Shown here: in pieces, positions 4,269-10,849 of the stretch
Layout: the number at the start of each line of letters is the position of its first letter
How positions within the stretch are numbered: position 1 is the first letter of the stretch
Assembly (NCBI GenBank): GCA_030631975.1
Contig: DAOVKD010000005.1
Location: forward strand, 1-13,832
Length of the DNA: 13,832 bases
Reading direction: 5' to 3'
Source of the DNA: Candidatus Woesearchaeota archaeon
Lineage (GTDB): Archaea > Nanobdellota > Nanobdellia > Woesearchaeales > GW2011-AR4
The notes under the pieces: model-generated
Told to the model about the DNA's origin: nothing
Seen by the model: the letters and a program-made list of their open reading frames with translations, nothing else
Databases searched by the model: none
Made by a program: the position numbers and the translations under genes

Positions 4269-5114
4269 ATGATAGGAGTAAAATTACCATCTTTAGGACA
4301 AAATAAGCAGTCTGCAGCCGACATGATCGTTAATGTCCTTACTACACATTGGCCGCTTAGCGCTAAGAAAATTTACAATAGGATAAAGCAAGAATACCAA
4401 TTTGGATCAACTTATCAAGCAGTGCATAAGTCGTTAAAACATCTTCAAAAAGAAGGTATATTACTAAAGCAAGGTAAAGACTACCAGATAAATTTAAAGT
4501 GGCTCGATAAAATTGTTGGTTTTGCTAATAATGTAAGGAAAAACTATTTAGCCAAAGAAGACAAGACATTCTCAAGCAATATACCCAACATAGCAACTAG
4601 TGGAAATGCGAGTATACTAACTTTTAATACAATAAAAGATGCAGATTTATTTGTTATAAATTTTGAAAGAAGAACAAACAAGACAGCTGTAGGCCATGCC
4701 AGGCATTTTTGGTGGGCACTTTTCTATCTTAAAAAGACATTTGACAAACATCTTATAGGAATTAATAAAAAAACATATGGTCTATGTAGAGGTGCTACTG
4801 CGCTTGACAAATGGTGTGTTGAATTTGAAAACTCAATAGGTCTGTCCTCAAAATGTGGTATTGACGTAGCACAGGATTGCGACCTCTATGTGTACGATGA
4901 CTATGTTATTCATGTATTTATGCCATTGGAATTAGTAAAGAAGATTGATGAGTTATTTGAAAACTCTACAAGAATTCTAGATATAAACTTCAGAAAACTG
5001 TTTGATGAGATATATGAAAAGAAAACCACTGTTCAAGTTATTATGAATAAAAATCCTCAACTTGCGGGCAGGGTTAGAAAGGAAACCATTGTCCATTTTT
5101 CTGCTAAAAGTTAA
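4269..5114 (+). CDS. Winged-helix DNA-binding protein with unknown C-terminal domain
   Basis: The 281-aa protein begins with a winged-helix domain at about residues 15-72: helix AADMIVNVLTTHW, then SAKKIYNRIKQEY, recognition helix STYQAVHKSLKHLQKEG, and a wing with LLKQGKDYQINLKWL. This is the layout of small archaeal regulators. Residues about 95-281 form a second domain of mixed strands and helices (including ARHFWWALFYLKK and CGIDVAQDCDLYVYDDYVIHVF) that I do not recognise; it may sense a ligand. The C-terminal domain contains several cysteines and histidines but no clear metal motif. A TATA-like stretch at 4239-4252 precedes the ATG. It lies immediately upstream of the structured accessory region and could be the last gene of the stable chromosome or part of the accessory block. 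Confidence 0.8.
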   Translation: MIGVKLPSLGQNKQSAADMIVNVLTTHWPLSAKKIYNRIKQEYQFGSTYQAVHKSLKHLQKEGILLKQGKDYQINLKWLDKIVGFANNVRKNYLAKEDKTFSSNIPNIATSGNASILTFNTIKDADLFVINFERRTNKTAVGHARHFWWALFYLKKTFDKHLIGINKKTYGLCRGATALDKWCVEFENSIGLSSKCGIDVAQDCDLYVYDDYVIHVFMPLELVKKIDELFENSTRILDINFRKLFDEIYEKKTTVQVIMNKNPQLAGRVRKETIVHFSAKS

Positions 5115-5279: not shown

Positions 5280-5412
5280 TTTATCGACCACAAGGCAAAT
5301 AAAAAATTACGCATAACATATAAAATTAAGCGAAGTTCCGTAGGAATTTGGGTGAGTAACGCAGGGGCGTTGATGCCGAGCATCCCGCAACCGCATAATT
5401 CCTGTTATACGT
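5280..5412. repeat. attC-like folded element, copy 1
   Basis: This element has an outer stem ACGCATAACA (5309-5318) with TGTTATACGT (5403-5412), one mismatch. A small internal loop follows, then an inner stem AATTAAGCG (5324-5332) with CGCATAATT (5392-5400), one mismatch. The branched tip contains AAGTTCC (5333-5339) pairing with GGAATTT (5343-5349). Copy 2 at 7235-7401 is homologous throughout: TTTAyCGAC, AAAAATTACGyATAAC, GCGAAGTTC, GAATTTGGGTG, TTGATGCCGA and CGCATAATTCCTGTT occur in the same order. The arrangement equals the R, central spacer, L, variable-tip layout of integron attC sites. A structured RNA or a decayed inverted-repeat element would also fit. Confidence 0.6.
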
Positions 5413-5450
5413 AGCGAACCTTTGATGGTGAGCGGAGTTTTTAAGCCACC
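5404..5450. repeat. Left terminal inverted repeat of unit A
   Basis: GTTATACGT (5404-5412) and TTTTTAAGCCACC (5438-5450) recur as exact reverse complements at 7264-7272 and 7249-7261. On the left the two blocks are separated by a 25-base insert that folds as GC-GA-ACC-TTTGAT-GGT-GA-GC (5414-5433); on the right they are two bases apart. Confidence 0.75.
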
Positions 5451-5488
5451 GAAAATGCGTTACTGCCGTAGTTTTTGATTAGTTTATA
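5449..5488. repeat. Left inverted-repeat arm around the DUF4145 gene
   Basis: CCGAAAATGC (5449-5458), GTTACTGCC (5459-5467) and TTTTTGATTAGTTTATA (5472-5488) each reappear inverted and in reverse order at 6369-6378, 6355-6363 and 6247-6263 (the last with one mismatch). They bracket the DUF4145 gene. Confidence 0.7.
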
Positions 5489-5550
5489 CCTTATAGATAA
5501 CTGCCAAAGGCAGACTAGAGTTCTAAAGAGTAAGATTAGCCTTTATTATA

Positions 5551-6180
5551 TTATTTATTATCTCGTTTACCAATTCCATTAACCTTTTTATCAGGTAAAC
5601 TCTCATAAATCTCTTTAATTTCTTTAGGTTGAGTAATCATGACTTGAGCAATAATATTTATTAAATTAAATAATTTAATTGTAATTTCTTTATTATTTTC
5701 CAAATCCAATTCTCCTGGATGAACAGCTTCATTTCCAATAACTCTAACACTATCTAATGCTTGTTGGATTGTTGGTGATAAACCCTTTTTAACAAGGTTG
5801 CCAATGTCATCATTAAGATTCTCCCCAGATTCTCCTAATTGAACACACAATTTTTGTATGGCCAGTCGTAATAAAGCAGAAGCACCTCTTGGAGACTTAT
5901 GGACTATACTTCCTGCTTCGAGATAGTCTCTTTTTATATCCTCATTTAAATCTTGGTTTGGAGGAGGTATCCCTGAAAAATCTGGATATATAATCTTATC
6001 AGAAAACCATAATGTAAGATTTTTACAGCGTTTACATTTTGAAATTTTGAAATCATTTTGGTCATTATAATATGAATCTTCATTTTGGATGTACAATCCT
6101 GACCAATGTTGGTGTGCATAACTATTACAATAAGGGCAATGGAAAGCAGTTTCATCTAATTTTGGTGTAACATAATCCAT
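5551..6180 (-). CDS. DUF4145 protein with N-terminal zinc ribbon
   Basis: The 209-aa protein starts with a zinc ribbon, C15-P-Y-C18 and C49-K-R-C52, followed by a short linker and an all-helical domain. The helical part matches DUF4145: SPRGASALLRLAIQKLC at 96-112 and the signature IGNEAVHPGELDL at 148-160. As I recall, DUF4145 belongs to the HEPN-like helical superfamily and often occurs beside or fused to restriction enzymes and other defence proteins; its biochemical role is not settled. The ATG at 6180 is used. A GTG three codons upstream (6189) fits a TATA-like GTTATAATTT (rev-comp of 6213-6222) better and is a real alternative. The gene is the only one inside a private inverted repeat in unit A. 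Confidence 0.87.
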   Translation of the reverse strand: MDYVTPKLDETAFHCPYCNSYAHQHWSGLYIQNEDSYYNDQNDFKISKCKRCKNLTLWFSDKIIYPDFSGIPPPNQDLNEDIKRDYLEAGSIVHKSPRGASALLRLAIQKLCVQLGESGENLNDDIGNLVKKGLSPTIQQALDSVRVIGNEAVHPGELDLENNKEITIKLFNLINIIAQVMITQPKEIKEIYESLPDKKVNGIGKRDNK

Positions 6181-6246
6181 ATTTATCACTTATAATAAGG
6201 GATTCATTGAAGAAATTATAACTTTTTCGGTTTTAATAGAGTTTTC

Positions 6247-6378
6247 TATAAAGTAATCAAAAATTTGGGTGAAGCGAAGCGTAACCGTTTAACGCTGGTT
6301 AGACAAAGTTTTAATTTTGTCGTCTTTAGTTTTTTCTTTATGGCGTTAAGCGAAGGCAGTAACAATTAGCATTTTCGG
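6247..6378. repeat. Right inverted-repeat arm around the DUF4145 gene
   Basis: The three blocks of the left arm (5449-5488) occur here inverted: TATAAAGTAATCAAAAA (6247-6263), GGCAGTAAC (6355-6363) and GCATTTTCGG (6369-6378). About 90 bases with their own hairpin are inserted between the first and second block, and a 5-base insert separates the second and third. Confidence 0.7.
6287..6351. repeat. Two-stem hairpin inserted in the right arm
   Basis: GTTTAACGCT (6287-6296) pairs with GGCGTTAAGC (6342-6351) using two G-T pairs, and GACAAA (6302-6307) pairs with TTTGTC (6316-6321) inside it. The outer arms GTTTAAC and GTTAAGC match the attC R-box consensus RYYYAAC ... GTTRRRY, and the 65-base span is in the attC size range. 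The match is suggestive only. Confidence 0.4.
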
Positions 6379-6408
6379 CGTTAGCCCTTGCTTTCTCGAA
6401 GAAAACAG

Positions 6409-6424
6409 AAAATTTGGGGCAAAT
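6409..6424. repeat. 16-bp perfect inverted repeat, left copy
   Basis: AAAATTTGGGGCAAAT here is the exact reverse complement of 7140-7155. The two copies bracket the six-helix membrane gene tightly: the repeat ends on the first base of its stop codon. Confidence 0.8.
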
Positions 6425-7107
6425 TACAATTTGTTCTTACCTATCAATTGATAAGTTATATATAAAAAACATAATGGGAGGATAACTTTCAGAATTCTTT
6501 GAACTGTAGCTTTTATTCCGCTACCGACAATATCCCAATTTGCGATTAGATATCCTCTACCCATTGAGATTACAAAAGATTCTTTAAAATTCATAATGTC
6601 AACAAATATGACAAACATCAGTATTAGGCTACTCAATACAAATGTTGCTTTAACTTTTTTATGTTTAGACAAAAAAGAGATTAAAGCAGAAACTATAAGA
6701 TACATCATGGGGTAATGAATTTGTTTTTGTTCCAATAAATCAGAACGAACTTCCTCAACTTCCATATCAATGCCATGATATATCACTTCTTCGTATGTTG
6801 TTGGATTAAAAAGTGTCAAGATTAATGTGATTACTGTAAGTACTCCAATCAAAATAAAAGTAGAATCTTTGGTTACTTCTTTTTCGATATGTTTTTCATC
6901 TAAAACAAATTTGAGAATGACAATTGAAATAAAAGGTACAGACATCAAATAAAGTACACTCTTCCAATCAGTGTAAAAAGCAATAAAATCAGAATAACTG
7001 TTACTAGATAGATAAATAATAAAAGCTAAAATAAAAAATGATGCTAATATTATATTTACTTTATACTCTTTACATGTATTTAATATTTTTTTGAATAAAC
7101 CTTCCAT
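6424..7107 (-). CDS. Multi-pass membrane protein, unknown function
   Basis: A 227-aa protein with about six hydrophobic helices, near residues 14-36, 45-67, 83-102, 131-147, 154-172 and 206-222. The loop between helices 3 and 4 is acidic (EEVIYHGIDMEVEEVRSDLLEQKQIHYP) and is the only sizeable polar region. I recognise no family. The ATG at 7107 is supported by a TATA-like TATTAAATAC (rev-comp of 7131-7140) 24-33 bases upstream. The gene with its promoter fills the space between the two copies of a 16-bp inverted repeat, so it looks like a single-gene inserted unit within unit A. Confidence 0.8.
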   Translation of the reverse strand: MEGLFKKILNTCKEYKVNIILASFFILAFIIYLSSNSYSDFIAFYTDWKSVLYLMSVPFISIVILKFVLDEKHIEKEVTKDSTFILIGVLTVITLILTLFNPTTYEEVIYHGIDMEVEEVRSDLLEQKQIHYPMMYLIVSALISFLSKHKKVKATFVLSSLILMFVIFVDIMNFKESFVISMGRGYLIANWDIVGSGIKATVQRILKVILPLCFLYITYQLIGKNKL

Positions 7108-7130
7108 TATACATAATAAACATGATTGAA

Positions 7131-7140
7131 GTATTTAATA
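7131..7140 (-). promoter_or_regulatory. TATA box for the 227-aa membrane protein
   Basis: On the minus strand this reads TATTAAATAC, 24-33 bases before the ATG at 7107, and it abuts the right 16-bp inverted repeat. The unit therefore carries its own promoter. Confidence 0.45.
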
Positions 7141-7155
7141 TTTGCCCCAAATTTT
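7140..7155. repeat. 16-bp perfect inverted repeat, right copy
   Basis: ATTTGCCCCAAATTTT is the exact reverse complement of 6409-6424. It closes the 227-aa membrane gene unit and begins the 528-base gene-free gap that holds copy 2 of the attC-like element. Confidence 0.8.
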
Positions 7156-7182
7156 GCAGATTAATTTATAATTAATCGATTG

Positions 7183-7210
7183 TTCTAAAAAGCTTTGATG
7201 GTTTTTAGAA
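7183..7210. repeat. TTTGAT-loop hairpin
   Basis: TTCTAAAAA (7183-7191) pairs perfectly with TTTTTAGAA (7202-7210) around a loop that contains CTTTGATG. It is one of five hairpins in this region that present TTTGAT at the tip. Confidence 0.6.
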
Positions 7211-7234
7211 TTTTCATCGAGAAATTTTGAGGAG

Positions 7235-7405
7235 TTTACCGACGAGAAGGTGGCTTAAAAATTACGTATAACCTCGGAATTATGCGAAGTTCAATTTTCC
7301 ACGAGGCTCGATTAATCTGAGACTCGTGCTGAAAATTGAATTTGGGTGGAGGAGCTTTCGAGCTTTGATGCCGAAAGCGACGGAACCGCATAATTCCTGT
7401 TTCCC
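7235..7405. repeat. attC-like folded element, copy 2
   Basis: The inner stem is 11 perfect base pairs, GGAATTATGCG (7276-7286) with CGCATAATTCC (7387-7397). The tip holds a long hairpin: AAGTTCAATTTTC (7287-7299) with GAAAATTGAATTT (7331-7343), extended by CACGAG (7300-7305) with CTCGTG (7323-7328); in copy 1 the same hairpin is only seven pairs. A second tip hairpin is GCTTTCG (7354-7360) with CGAAAGC (7372-7378) and a TTTGAT loop. The outer left arm ACGTATAAC (7264-7272) does not pair with its own right arm GTTTCCC (7399-7405) but pairs perfectly with the right arm after copy 1. Confidence 0.6.
7249..7272. repeat. Right terminal inverted repeat of unit A
   Basis: GGTGGCTTAAAAA (7249-7261) and ACGTATAAC (7264-7272) are exact reverse complements of the two blocks at 5438-5450 and 5404-5412, so unit A (5404-7272) has matching inverted ends. 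It lies inside copy 2 of the attC-like element. Confidence 0.75.
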
Positions 7406-7570
7406 GAAGTATGACGCAGTTCTTGAGGGCTTTGATGCCCGAAAGAACGAGTAATATTTGTAAAGCGAACCGAAACCCTTTGATGGGTTGAGGGTACCCC
7501 ACTAAAAGCGTAGTTCGTATATCGTTCTAAGACAAAGAGGCACAGTAATAGAAAAGTGCGGAGTGGGGTA
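7398..7570. repeat. Left terminal inverted repeat of unit B, with hairpin inserts
   Basis: TGTTTCCC (7398-7405), GTAAAGCGAACC (7460-7471), CCCCACT (7497-7503), TTCGTA (7514-7519) and GACAAAGAGGCACA (7531-7544) recur inverted, in reverse order, at 10135-10194. Extra sequence on this side forms two hairpins with TTTGAT loops: GTTCTT-GA-GGGC-TTTGAT-GCCC-GA-AAGAAC at 7419-7448 and AACCC-TTTGAT-GGGTT flanked by GA at 7472-7491. TACCCCACT (7495-7503) can also pair locally with AGTGGGGTA (7562-7570). Confidence 0.75.
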
Positions 7571-7603
7571 AAGTTTAGAGACAAAAAGAATGAGAATAGG
7601 AAA

Positions 7604-7612
7604 ATTTAAATT
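7604..7612 (+). promoter_or_regulatory. TATA box for the 111-aa protein
   Basis: ATTTAAATT lies 24-32 bases before the ATG at 7636, consistent with leaderless transcription of the first gene of unit B. Confidence 0.5.
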
Positions 7613-7635
7613 CATAAGCATAACATAATTAGATT

Positions 7636-7971
7636 ATGTCAAAAACTCCAGAATTTTTTAAAAATTTAAAATTGAATAAATACTATAAAGTATTCTTATA
7701 CACATTCGGCATAATACTCATATTATCCTTTATTGTTGAATTTAAAAATGTAGATGTGGAGCATCTCCGTATTATTTGTTATTGGATTATTTTTACTTCT
7801 GCTGGAGTTTGGCTTTTGGAAGACTTATTTTATATGTTGGCTATGTATATTGATGGAGCAGTATCATATAAGGATCAAGATGCAGTTGCTTTTATATTAA
7901 TAACAATATATTATGGATTACAGGCTTTTGTTTGGATTTATATCATGAGAAATGTTTTAGATTTATTCTAA
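7636..7971 (+). CDS. Small three-helix membrane protein, unknown function
   Basis: A 111-aa protein with three predicted membrane helices at about residues 16-35, 43-72 (long, or two short ones) and 83-104. It has a short basic N-terminus (MSKTPEFFKNLKLNKYYK), and the loop DGAVSYKDQD lies between the last two helices. No family is recognised. The ATG is supported by the TATA box at 7604-7612. It is the first of three plus-strand genes in unit B and, like the next, has its own TATA box, so the first two may be transcribed separately. Base composition is visibly more AT-rich than in the flanking housekeeping genes. Confidence 0.75.
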   Translation: MSKTPEFFKNLKLNKYYKVFLYTFGIILILSFIVEFKNVDVEHLRIICYWIIFTSAGVWLLEDLFYMLAMYIDGAVSYKDQDAVAFILITIYYGLQAFVWIYIMRNVLDLF

Positions 7972-7997
7972 CAAAAAGATGTAAAATAACCAAAAAA

Positions 7998-8006
7998 ATT
8001 TAAATT
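7998..8006 (+). promoter_or_regulatory. TATA box deciding the start of the 377-aa protein
   Basis: ATTTAAATT lies 23-31 bases before the ATG at 8029. The alternative TTG start at 8005 would fall inside this box, so 8029 is preferred. Confidence 0.5.
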
Positions 8007-8028
8007 GTTTAGTATTAATACTCTTAAA

Positions 8029-9162
8029 ATGCCTAAGAAAGAAGATTGTACTAGATATTTACCAACAATAAATTTTTTATGTAACAAATTAGGTGTAGAT
8101 TTTAATAAAGTTGACTTTAAAGATAATTCTAAAGAATACGTATCTGCAACCATAGTATGTCTTGAAGAACCAATAAATTTTAGTATCACGTTGGATTGTT
8201 ATGAAGGGTTTCCAGAAGTTTCTTTAGAAATAAAAGATATAAATTCTCCAATTGTACATTATTTTTCTATACATAATAAAAATGAGACATTTAGTGAAAG
8301 ATGGATTGATAAATGCTTAGCAGAACTGAATAGTAAAAAAAACAAATTAGAATATTATGTTAATAAATATGGATTTAAAATTGGAAGTGACTATGGAGTA
8401 TCCCCTCATGGTTCAAACTCATTTGTGAGGGATTTAAGGGGGTTGCTATCACAGAACCCTAAAATAATTTATGTTCTAAAAATAATGCATATAAGGGAAG
8501 ATGACTATTATAGGGCTTTTAGTTATGGTATCTTTGATTTTAAGAATAATGAATGGATAATTTACCCTTATTGTGGTAGTTTAGATTCTGGTGGTGGTTG
8601 GATTTCAGAAGGAATAATAAAAAAAGAGATAGAAGCAGTTAAAGAATGTTATAATGTTAAAATTATAGAATTAAATGAGGATTTAGACCTATTTTGCAGA
8701 TTCTTTAATGTCAATCTAGACAAAATTGACTTTAATTTTAATGATTTAGAATTTATTTCTAGTTTCAAACATGAAGGGGAAAAAATTGCCCACCACATAA
8801 ATTTAAAAGAATATTTTGATGCTATAAGGCTCATGAGAATTTTAATAGATAGTATGTGTAAAGAATTAATTAAAAAAGAAAAATTAGAATATGATTATAC
8901 AAAAAACGATAAATTACAATCAATCTTTAATTTTCTATGCAGTAAAACTATATTGTCTACAATATACATTAAATATTTAGAACTATTTTTGTTAATTGCT
9001 AATCAAGCCCAGCATAATCTAACCAAACAATTCTGGTACTTTTTTGAAGAGGTAGAAAATAAAAATGAGTTCTTATTGAGTTCCCTATATGTTGGAAAAA
9101 TACTAGTTAATTATTTAGATAGGAAATTAAACCCAACAAAAAATAAGGGTATAATTAAATAA
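8029..9162 (+). CDS. Unrecognised 377-aa protein with helical C-terminal domain
   Basis: The first roughly 120 residues (MPKKEDCTRYLPTINFLCNKLGVDF...) are a compact mixed domain, followed by a strand-rich central part with a glycine-rich turn (GSLDSGGGWISEG). The last 120 residues are all-helical, ending in YIKYLELFLLIANQAQHNLTKQFWYFFEEVE and a final helix ending in NYL. The latter pattern, a polar N-x-A-x-H-N patch between helices, recalls the C-terminal end of DUF4145 and other HEPN-like domains, but the resemblance is weak and inferred. There are no membrane helices and no obvious catalytic motif. The ATG at 8029 fits the TATA box; the following gene starts 23 bases after the stop, so both are probably co-transcribed. 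Confidence 0.75.
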   Translation: MPKKEDCTRYLPTINFLCNKLGVDFNKVDFKDNSKEYVSATIVCLEEPINFSITLDCYEGFPEVSLEIKDINSPIVHYFSIHNKNETFSERWIDKCLAELNSKKNKLEYYVNKYGFKIGSDYGVSPHGSNSFVRDLRGLLSQNPKIIYVLKIMHIREDDYYRAFSYGIFDFKNNEWIIYPYCGSLDSGGGWISEGIIKKEIEAVKECYNVKIIELNEDLDLFCRFFNVNLDKIDFNFNDLEFISSFKHEGEKIAHHINLKEYFDAIRLMRILIDSMCKELIKKEKLEYDYTKNDKLQSIFNFLCSKTILSTIYIKYLELFLLIANQAQHNLTKQFWYFFEEVENKNEFLLSSLYVGKILVNYLDRKLNPTKNKGIIK

Positions 9163-9185
9163 TAAAATCAATTAAATTTAGGTAA

Positions 9186-10118
9186 ATGAAGGAAAAAAGC
9201 ATACCCAATCTAAGAAAAGGCATGAAGGATAAGTATTATTATGTCTATCCTAGCTTATTTAAAGAAATCTATGATTTTTTATTGGAAGCTGATAGTCTAT
9301 TCCCAATATTAATGTGGCACAACTCTTGTAAAACAGTAAATTTTTCTCCAACGCCTCATGCTATTTCTGTTGATATTTTTGAAGACGTTGATTTAAACGT
9401 GGGATACATAACGGAGGAAATATTCGACGATTTATTGGCTTTTTTCCATTGTTTTAATCATGGATTTATCAAACAATCTCAAGGAATCCTAAGGACTGCA
9501 TTAGAACTTTTAGTCATATTAATATTTCTAAAATATGGCCAAGTCAAAGACAAGACTTTTATTTCTTGGAAAAAAGGAGAATTTGGAATTGTAAATTCTG
9601 GTGAAAAGATAGATGAGTTGAAAAAAGTGGACAATATAGTAATTAAAAAATTAAAGTTAAAAAATCTTTATAATCAACTATGTTCCTCAACTCATTCTCG
9701 TAAATATCAAATGAATTCAATCAATTCTGACAGTGGTACGGTAATTAATAGAGCAAGTTTTAATCCACTTTTAACTCTTCAGAGTAAAGCTCTATTTTGG
9801 ACTTTGGTATCTTATATAATCCTAGCTATCAAAGAGATAATATCTGAAGATTATTACACAGAACACAAAAAAGAGCTTTATCTATTACTAAGAAATTTAG
9901 AAAGAAAAGCTTCAAAATATGATAAGCTTATTAGATTAGTTGAAAAAGGATATTTAATATTCCACAGACAATTTAATTATAAATCAAAAAATATAATGTT
10001 TTCTGTTAAAATTGATGGGAGTAGGGAGTTTAAAACAAAAATTAAATGTACAATTGATGAAAAAACTCAAATCAATAAAAAAATTGATACAATAATCTTT
10101 TATGAGCCTAAAAAATAA
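9186..10118 (+). CDS. Unrecognised 310-aa helical protein, possibly HEPN-related
   Basis: A largely helical protein. The segment FHCFNHGFIKQSQGILRTALELLVILIFLKYG (about residues 88-119) followed by LKNLYNQLCSSTHSRKYQMN (about 157-176) resembles the arrangement of DUF5677-like/HEPN-type domains, in which an R-x-x-x-E helix is followed by a tyrosine-serine-histidine patch. This assignment is inferred from the pattern and is uncertain. A further hydrophobic helix SKALFWTLVSYIILAIKEII lies near 202-221, and the last 60 residues are strand-rich. AGGT lies just before the ATG at 9186. The stop is only 16 bases from the right inverted repeat of unit B, so the gene fills the unit to its edge. Confidence 0.75.
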   Translation: MKEKSIPNLRKGMKDKYYYVYPSLFKEIYDFLLEADSLFPILMWHNSCKTVNFSPTPHAISVDIFEDVDLNVGYITEEIFDDLLAFFHCFNHGFIKQSQGILRTALELLVILIFLKYGQVKDKTFISWKKGEFGIVNSGEKIDELKKVDNIVIKKLKLKNLYNQLCSSTHSRKYQMNSINSDSGTVINRASFNPLLTLQSKALFWTLVSYIILAIKEIISEDYYTEHKKELYLLLRNLERKASKYDKLIRLVEKGYLIFHRQFNYKSKNIMFSVKIDGSREFKTKIKCTIDEKTQINKKIDTIIFYEPKK

Positions 10119-10134
10119 ATGACTTTTATAGATA

Positions 10135-10194
10135 TGTGCCTCTTTGTCGTCGGTAGTTATTACGAAGTGGGGTTCGCTTTACGTATGGGAAACA
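10135..10194. repeat. Right terminal inverted repeat of unit B
   Basis: TGTGCCTCTTTGTC (10135-10148), TACGAA (10161-10166), AGTGGGG (10166-10172), GGTTCGCTTTAC (10171-10182) and GGGAAACA (10187-10194) mirror the blocks at 7398-7544. This compact arm lacks the TTTGAT hairpins found on the left. The reverse complement also matches copy 1 of the attC-like element (ATACGTA followed by AGCGAACC). Confidence 0.75.
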
Positions 10195-10261
10195 CCAATT
10201 AGACGAACTTGTTGATTTTAGGTTCTGAAAGCTTAGAATTAAAAGGTGTCAGAAACTTTCC
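10188..10261. repeat. Possible third folded element at the end of unit B
   Basis: GGAAA (10188-10192) can pair with TTTCC (10257-10261), CACC (10193-10196) with GGTG (10244-10247), and GAAC with GTTC inside, around a tip containing TTGAT. It follows the layout of copies 1 and 2, but the stems are short and the expected G-TT at the right outer arm is missing. Confidence 0.3.
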
Positions 10262-10324: not shown

Positions 10325-10849
10325 ATGCCACGTTCATTTGAACCAATTACCGAGCAGGATTTAAATGAGTTATTGAAACTTGCTTTAGAGGAGCATGAAG
10401 CTTTCTTCAAAAGAAAACCAGAGTATGAATCTTTCTACAAAAACAATCTTCTGGCTATTGTATTGGGACAAGGGGCTGCTTTACATTATCTTAATGGTAA
10501 ATATGGTGTTAATGATTTTGATGTCTATCTTTTTTATAGAGATAATCCAGAGAAAAAGATGTCGATAAGACGACCCAAACATATAAAATCCCATTTAGAT
10601 AAATTTGATAATCCAAAAGTAGACTTTATACGAAAAGCTATTAATACAAAGTACATAGTTAGCAATGAAGACAACCCACAAAAGATTATTGAGAAACTAT
10701 TGAACGAATCTAAGAAACCATTTGTTAAATATTTGACCATCTGGGCTAAAAAAGAGAAGAATAGGACAAGAAATGTTGTTATTGGATTGTACCCAAAACC
10801 AATATTTAAAATGGTTTTGTGGGATGGGGAAGTTCAAAAGATATTTTAA
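10325..10849 (+). CDS. Nucleotidyltransferase-like protein of unknown role
   Basis: A 174-aa soluble protein. GQGAALHYLNGKYGVNDFDVYLFY at about 48-71 has the G-x-G, then D-x-D layout of the minimal nucleotidyltransferase fold, the two aspartates (D63, D65) being the metal-ligand candidates. The overall plan resembles a widespread family of uncharacterised bacterial proteins with the same G-Q-G-A-A-L-H-Y and D-x-D-V segments. In that family a later basic helix and a C-terminal G-x-x-W are also seen; here NESKKPFVKYLTIWAKK and VLWDGEV. The match is from memory. A third catalytic carboxylate could be D102 (residue count approximate) in KVDFIRK. No HEPN partner adjoins it directly, but HEPN-like genes lie upstream. 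It converges on the zinc-ribbon gene with a 10-base gap. Confidence 0.75.
   Translation: MPRSFEPITEQDLNELLKLALEEHEAFFKRKPEYESFYKNNLLAIVLGQGAALHYLNGKYGVNDFDVYLFYRDNPEKKMSIRRPKHIKSHLDKFDNPKVDFIRKAINTKYIVSNEDNPQKIIEKLLNESKKPFVKYLTIWAKKEKNRTRNVVIGLYPKPIFKMVLWDGEVQKIF

Follow-up and report, generated by a model that had tools for sequence, protein, structure and literature searches.

A probable integron-like cassette array linked to XerA-type recombinases in a DPANN-type archaeon

Contig DAOVKD010000005.1 of a Candidatus Woesearchaeota archaeon (assembly GCA_030631975.1) contains two hairpin sites whose outer arms pair with arms of the neighboring site or junction. This raises the question of whether the locus is built from mobile gene cassettes, as an integron is, and of which enzyme could move them. 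The window analyzed here is the entire contig of 13,832 nt, which comes from a metagenome-assembled genome (MAG) that is 64% complete (937 kb over 186 contigs). An initial annotation, made from the letters of the window, had proposed two adjacent cassettes that follow integron logic and move by site-specific recombination. Our analysis supports that logic, from which we infer mobility, and indicates that the window probably holds a portion of an integron-like cassette array, from a DPANN-type archaeon, served by an XerA-type tyrosine recombinase system. Judged from its anatomy, the system would work like an integron; by its integrase, it stands outside the IntI integrons.

Arm pairing in the window

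The argument starts from two attC-like sites, one junction and two conserved cassette ends:
5309-5412, plus strand: attC-like site 1, with R'' at 5309-5317, L'' at about 5321-5337, L' at about 5390-5402, R' at 5404-5412 and a TTGATG hairpin loop.
7264-7407, plus strand: attC-like site 2, with R'' at 7264-7272, L'' at about 7276-7292, L' at about 7387-7397 and R' at 7399-7407.
10187-10211, plus strand: right junction, made up of the left-arm remnant GGGAAAC, a 6-nt spacer, CACCAA (10193-10198), and then TTAGACGAACTT.
5404-5480, plus strand: conserved cassette end with a C-TTTGAT-G hairpin, joined to other cargo in relatives; the stem covaries by eye.
7174-7272, plus strand: conserved opposite cassette end, seen also at loci L043 and L046 and abutting a recombinase gene region in genomes G006 and G020.

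The right arm of site 1, GTTATACGT (5404-5412), is the exact 9-nt complement of the left arm of site 2, ACGTATAAC (7264-7272), as the initial annotation had it, and each occurs once on the plus strand of the window (0.09 occurrences expected for a 9-mer). The site's own arms, ACGCATAAC (5309-5317) and the right arm just named, differ at one position, which is the mismatch that had been pointed out. The right arm of site 2 was said not to pair with its own left arm, and indeed the two agree at just 2 of 6 variable positions. GTTTCCC (7399-7405) is instead the perfect complement of GGGAAAC (10187-10193), again as claimed, with a single plus-strand occurrence of each in the window (0.38 expected); this pairing spans 7 nt, compared with 9 nt for the other. 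Folding is moderate for site 1 (z = -2.5 on the plus strand and -2.8 on the minus strand), with values of -6.8 (plus) and -5.2 (minus) for site 2, and the right junction folds poorly (z = 0.27). This junction resembles the integrase-adjoining site of relatives (compare positions 4838-4861 of locus L138). The open reading frame (ORF) that follows it, at 10325-10849, is not an integrase gene.

DNA searches revealed that the ends of the cassette between the two sites (cassette A) are common to other cassettes of the same family and order, which carry different cargo. The sequence lying between two cassettes was likewise found again, its arms changed but still pairing. The segment 5396-5485 was matched in 30 of 352 genomes of the order, the window's own genome included. 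TTTGAT-loop hairpins closed by C-G were also seen near cassette ends at 5412-5432, 7193, 7363, 7417-7450 and 7465-7490 of the window and at 7567 and 7617 of locus L049. They often have a GA/GA internal loop, and their stems vary between cassettes yet still pair.

A family of hairpin sites in tandem arrays

Picking attC sites by eye from RYYYAAC alone was rejected as too loose, and a first stem finder with free spacers, which gave 36 matches compared with 27 in reversed sequence, was replaced by a stricter one. The strict pattern (AAC, 2 to 4 nt, stem, loop, stem, T, GTT) was run on 580 kb of partly overlapping loci and returned 10 sites at a score of at least 11, a level attained by site 2 and by no site in the reversed control; at a score of at least 9, the counts were 17 and 10. 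A covariance model, R1, was then built from eight aligned sites, both window copies among them. Eight of the 28 predicted pairs in this alignment stay paired despite changes on both sides. Sites 1 and 2 score 95.1 and 85.2 bits with R1, matches that follow by construction because both are seeds of the model. R1 matched 101 of the 352 genomes of the order (E ≤ 1e-4), often in tandem arrays. In a second, overlapping set of 371 genomes taken from the phylum, it matched 73 (E ≤ 1e-7). No Rfam family matched at its gathering threshold, and a lax search gave only chance-level matches.

The family has the paired L''/L' arms that mark hairpin attC sites in integrons. In an alignment of 75 further sites, fitted to R1 and so favorable to covariation, the L''/L' stem is 97.2% paired and 9 of its 11 pairs carry compensatory changes. 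Across the whole structure, 284 double-changed cells were counted, versus 77.6 in shuffles and 16 to 39 in slid controls, and the covariation score was 0.387 versus 0.131 (shuffled) and 0.03 to 0.075 (slid).

Arm pairing between neighbors proved to be general. The 20 array regions that were fetched contain 75 R1 matches, on a single strand in each region. The arm comparison used 72 of these (two were clipped at contig ends, and one 30-nt match was dropped) together with 15 of the 25 other R1 matches, a total of 87 sites. In 36 of the 59 consecutive pairs, all 6 variable positions of a right arm are complementary to the left arm of the site that follows, and at least 5 positions agree in 43. 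Full agreement was seen for 3 of 87 sites when a site's own arms were compared, for 5 of 207 nonadjacent pairs of the same locus and for 2.9% of comparisons between loci, so the cross-pairing first noticed in the window goes beyond chance. Regions that contributed nothing to the model gave 32 perfect pairs out of 52. As in integrons, one arm of each site belongs to the neighboring cassette; for the window pair the agreement is 9 of 9. A pattern search of the window's own genome recovered the two window copies without mismatch and four more with 3 mismatches, which is the control level; the two of these four that were inspected look coding. A second pair of sites in that genome, on contig C171 (53.2 and 24.0 bits), has arms that match at 9 of 9 positions. 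The array that it forms (locus L279, 3702-4752 of G000:C171) directly follows a dxr-like gene.

Arms agreeing at 5 or more of the 6 variable positions bound 43 cassettes; exclusion of three that lack an ORF of 50 amino acids left 40, with 0.3 to 5.8 kb between sites (median, 908 bp). Restriction-modification and other methyltransferase families are represented among 49 cassette-borne or neighboring proteins that were tested.

Array recombinases, dif-like half-sites and the putative cut

Nine loci of the 28-locus site set yielded a tyrosine recombinase match, and each time the gene is situated past the final site, toward R', and shares the strand of the sites. Locus L167 agrees with this placement, as does L129, where only a fragment of the gene is present. 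In 8 of the 9 loci the gene is preceded by an arm that complements the final R' (9 of 9 nt in six, 8 of 9 in two), and L191 reaches 7 of 9 at best. In six loci the matching arm is 126 to 207 nt from the gene, the integrase positions for this search being tblastn ranges and not annotated starts. An integrase adjacent to the array, with an attI-like site, was found in relatives and not on the window contig. A set of 80 named loci around related recombinases held 11 R1 sites; 5 of the 16 archaeal loci contained them and none of the 64 bacterial ones did, and all 11 lie upstream of the recombinase on the strand of the gene (L199 repeats L138). The records of archaeal recombinases carry the labels archaeon, Nanoarchaeota, Woesearchaeota, Pacearchaeota and Aenigmatarchaeota, which points to a DPANN archaeon as the probable host.

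All 11 aligned enzymes match both the NCBIfam XerA model (NF040815) and the integron integrase model. The two analyzed in detail score 209 and 221 bits with the former (cut-off, 220) and 187 to 188 bits with the latter (cut-off, 265), and three bacterial IntI score 454 to 505 bits on the IntI model. Residues 168 to 190 of the G006 enzyme stand opposite residues 175 to 239 of the integron integrase structure 2a3v, indicating that the IntI insert is missing. Consistent with this, the distance from GKG to HxLR is 54 to 61 amino acids in the 11 of 17 array enzymes in which the motifs were found, versus 100 to 101 in 18 IntI. The check suggested in the initial annotation, a search for a recombinase with the IntI extra helix, therefore fails: where measured, the array integrases of relatives lack this additional domain. 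In a tree of 93 rows, the 18 IntI rows (labelled by the insert, three of them verified with NCBIfam) group in a single clade (100/99) that includes none of the 17 rows labelled array, which fall among archaeal XerA. Four of the 17 (L011, L046, L061 and L088) have no R1 match on the stretch examined; four short rows and the L184 recombinase, whose alignment is split in two, were left out of the tree. No IntI above cut-off was found in any of the 352 genomes of the order at E ≤ 1e-60, a search in which its own control genomes gave none either.

Two further observations concern these enzymes. A CACTGGAC-like motif, sometimes palindromic in the manner of CTGGAC-N-GTCCAG, was seen by eye before several array integrases (L138 at 4964, L011 at 279, L064, L183, L193 and L198) and may be an operator. 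Bacteroidota loci (L204 to L278) contain many related recombinases of roughly 257 to 274 amino acids, again without the IntI insert.

Upstream of xerA-type genes of the family lies an imperfect palindrome, for example, AGTTCGTATAA-TACGGA-TTAGGCGAAGTTT. Of 19 upstream regions scanned over 130 nt, 11 contained a candidate dif and 8 none; the L082 candidate looks false, leaving 10 for use. With a matrix made from their right halves, 68 of 87 L'' boxes scored higher than the 99th percentile of the background (55 of 72 in nonseed regions), whereas no L' box of the 87, read backwards, reached that level. With all 11 halves, the count was 65 of 87. The half-sites of the arrays thus resemble chromosomal dif. 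When both strands of the window were scanned with the dif right-half matrix, the three best positions (10199, 7280 and 5326) were the three junctions, with the right junction on top at 17.8 bits. The spacing from TAA to the best half-site is 8 nt in 79 of the 87 sites, 9 nt in 7 and 6 nt in 1, compared with 6 nt in dif-like sites, and an 11-6-11 layout with equal 6-nt spacers at both ends was not found.

The asymmetry in dif likeness between L'' and L' suggests that the working core is the left arm plus L''. In alignments that span the whole site interior between loci, homology runs more than 20 nt past the right arm in 101 of 183 and past the left arm in 16 of 183, with the right extension longer than the left in 44 of 61 sites; the alignments, each counted from both sides, are not independent of one another, and L199 was omitted as a duplicate. 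At the nine integrase-proximal sites, pairwise identity is 0.61 over the 6 nt to the right of AAC and 0.48 to its left, which fits the suggested core. The interior of a site seems to move together with the right-hand cassette, the crossover falling inside the left arm. Given the homology beyond the right arm, and the more variable left arm that stands to the left of the integrase-proximal half-site, the cut is probably to be placed between AA and C of the left arm (G and TT on the minus strand). The break-points consequently favor the following cassettes:
5317-7271, minus strand: cassette A (1955 bp), two genes reading away from the right junction, with perfect 9-nt arms and ends placed from break-points.
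7272-10192, minus strand: cassette B (2921 bp), three plus-strand genes, with GTTTCCC/GGGAAAC arms and site 2 at the inner end.

Two adjacent cassettes with complementary arms, as first proposed, are thus retained; the boundaries given for them (5405-7399 and 7400-10194) and their direction of reading are probably wrong, given the homology break-points. The window cassettes probably read leftwards from the right junction, on the minus strand. The earlier gene counts of two and three per cassette agree with the ORF list, and the ORFs in and beside the cassettes are as follows:
4269-5114, plus strand: 281 amino acids, from the ORF list; the left arm at 5309-5317 follows.
5551-6189, minus strand: 212 amino acids, cassette A, with DUF4145 in a family search (E = 1.2e-13).
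6424-7107, minus strand: 227 amino acids, cassette A, membrane-like, no family above cut-off.
7636-7971, plus strand: 111 amino acids, cassette B, membrane-like, no family.
8029-9162, plus strand: 377 amino acids, cassette B, no family.
9186-10118, plus strand: 310 amino acids, cassette B, a weak DUF5677 match under the cut-off (E = 0.023).

The majority of the window cassette proteins matched no Pfam or NCBIfam family, and a firm family is missing for all three proteins of cassette B. The first ORF probably sits in a third cassette that ends at 5316, the opposite end of which was not found; the outer genes of the window, read from the ORF list, look like archaeal housekeeping genes. Within cassette A, the ORF at 6424-7107 is flanked by an inverted repeat of about 16 nt (6409-6425 and 7139-7155) and is absent from the homologous cassette ends of G006 (L011) and G020 (L046), as if it were a separate insertion. 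A second site-like stretch lies at 6286-6357, conserved in G020 and in part in G006, with a half-site score of 11.2 at 6299 and a weak R1 match of 14.1 bits at 6214-6306. Cassette A may be a fusion of two.

Competing explanations and relation to known integrons

Under the mechanism that we propose, each cassette would consist of one or a few genes and one hairpin site. An XerA-type tyrosine recombinase would bind dif-like half-sites (TTATGCGAAGTT beside ..TAAC) and cut between AA and C (G and TT on the minus strand), and cassettes would be excised and inserted between attC-like sites and an attI-like site 5' of the recombinase gene. Because the crossover would lie inside the arm, one arm of each site would come from the neighboring cassette, hence the cross-pairing.

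The same anatomy might be produced by double-stranded Xer/dif elements, modules with a dif-like 11-6-11 site at either end that the housekeeping XerA would move, in the manner of integrative elements known to make use of Xer. This was our working idea for a time: the half-sites agree with the dif-like sites found before xerA genes, and some junctions have exactly 6 nt between the halves, as at 10193-10198 of the window. Covariation and spacer lengths spoke against it. The TAA-to-half-site spacing is predominantly 8 nt and not the dif-like 6, the spacers at the ends of cassette A are unequal (TTCCTG and CCTCGG, by reading and not by systematic count), and the second, inverted arm pair, which a simple dif site would not need, covaries strongly. 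We therefore regard this explanation as unlikely. It is less probable still that the locus is a classical integron whose true IntI is missing from the MAGs, with the adjacent XerA a bystander. IntI integrons have been reported in archaeal MAGs, and attC sites in Nanoarchaeota, in the available text of PMC9668308. Set against this are the failure to find IntI above cut-off in any of the 352 genomes, when bacterial IntI reach 454 to 505 bits, and the XerA-type gene at the same end and strand in nine of nine loci, preceded by a matching arm (8 or 9 of 9 nt) in eight. Dispersed hairpin repeats or transposon ends without any cassette exchange would account for C-TTTGAT-G hairpin cassette ends being scattered among relatives and for some cassettes standing alone. 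They would not account for the arm rule, the one-strand tandem arrays, the integrase at a fixed end or the varied cargo, and we consider this explanation highly improbable.

Several observations weigh against a cassette system run by XerA. Recombination, catalysis, a single-stranded substrate and present mobility are steps that we infer. The eight window ORFs that were searched include no recombinase and the contig has no PF00589 match, which agrees with the earlier statement that intI is absent; the MAG has two PF00589 matches, both on other contigs and not of the array type. For the initial annotation, lack of an integrase together with lack of presence/absence variation would have refuted the idea: no integrase was found on the window contig, perhaps as a consequence of the 64% completeness of the MAG, and integrases were found in relatives. 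Even there, a search with three queries detected a recombinase in 7 of the 20 fetched array regions and none in the other 13, several of the regions stopping at a contig end. The matching arm is far from the gene at L193 (584 nt) and L184 (1524 nt), in an arm search run without a control. The array recombinases do not form one clade and enclose housekeeping XerA, so adjacency is no proof that the enzyme acts on the sites. On the side of the sites, in 16 of the 59 consecutive pairs no more than 4 of the 6 positions agree, 2 of the 8 pairs at L179 are perfect, and G405:C18, outside the 20 regions, has R1 matches on both strands. R1 E-values are rough, the L'' motif was partly selected by the model, and the bare count of double-changed pairs (17) was reached by 90 of 500 shuffles. 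Finally, L046 and L048 have cassettes of the same end family without an R1 site, and L047 has only a weak 35-nt match; these three, lacking a full hairpin site at one end, may have inserted at secondary sites.

With these points taken into account, we still hold the XerA-type cassette array to be the likely explanation. In a classical integron, attI stands between the cassettes and the integrase, which is transcribed away from them, and arrays of relatives likewise have an attI-like site 5' of the integrase, which lies beyond it and is transcribed away from the cassettes. The integron arm consensus is RYYYAAC/GTTRRRY; judged by eye, AAC/GTT is nearly constant in our arms and the flanking letters are often off that consensus. 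Unlike in integrons, the array integrase falls with archaeal XerA and, where measured, is without the IntI insert, and ORF direction is mixed, the longest ORF pointing away from the integrase end in 24 of 40 cassettes and toward it in 16. The window also resembles a cluster of attC sites lacking an integron integrase (CALIN), with two sites 1852 bp apart and no integrase found, and would count as one (at least two attC within 4 kb) only if R1 sites are taken as attC; unlike CALINs, arrays that include an integrase are present in relatives. With XerA/dif and Xer-dependent mobile elements the system has the recombinase family and half-site sequence in common, and it differs from them in its folded paired-arm sites, multicassette arrays and predominantly 8-nt spacers.

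Tandem cassettes, hairpin sites with complementary arms and an AAC/GTT core are shared with bacterial chromosomal integrons and with the archaeal integrons described in the available text of Ghaly et al. 2022 (PMC9668308). That text reports integrons in 75 archaeal MAGs, mostly CALINs, with 539 attC sites, among which some of the present sites may be included. It describes six archaeal IntI with the IntI-specific domain, three of which were excluded from the tree for short length or partial domain coverage, and, citing earlier work, calls the extra domain necessary for integron recombination (PMC9668308). The accessible part of a review of archaeal tyrosine recombinases mentions integrons and no archaeal cassette system, and the words DPANN and cassette do not occur in the review (PMC8371274). 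Archaeal XerA-type integrons were not recognized in titles and the beginnings of abstracts in the open-license PMC literature.

We lean toward a broader proposal, that XerA-integrons are a widespread means of gene capture in DPANN archaea, with an XerA-type recombinase that lacks the IntI domain and folded attC-like sites built from dif half-sites, either with an origin independent of bacterial integrons or as a relic from before IntI acquired its extra helix. The arrays of relatives, lying beside a recombinase of the XerA kind, suggest that integron-style gene capture is possible with an enzyme other than the bacterial one. If this is true, an array system without the IntI domain would be an alternative route to recombining hairpin sites, and the origin of integrons from Xer/dif would become testable. 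It would also be a common route of gene gain for archaea with small genomes, given sites in 101 of 352 genomes of one order.

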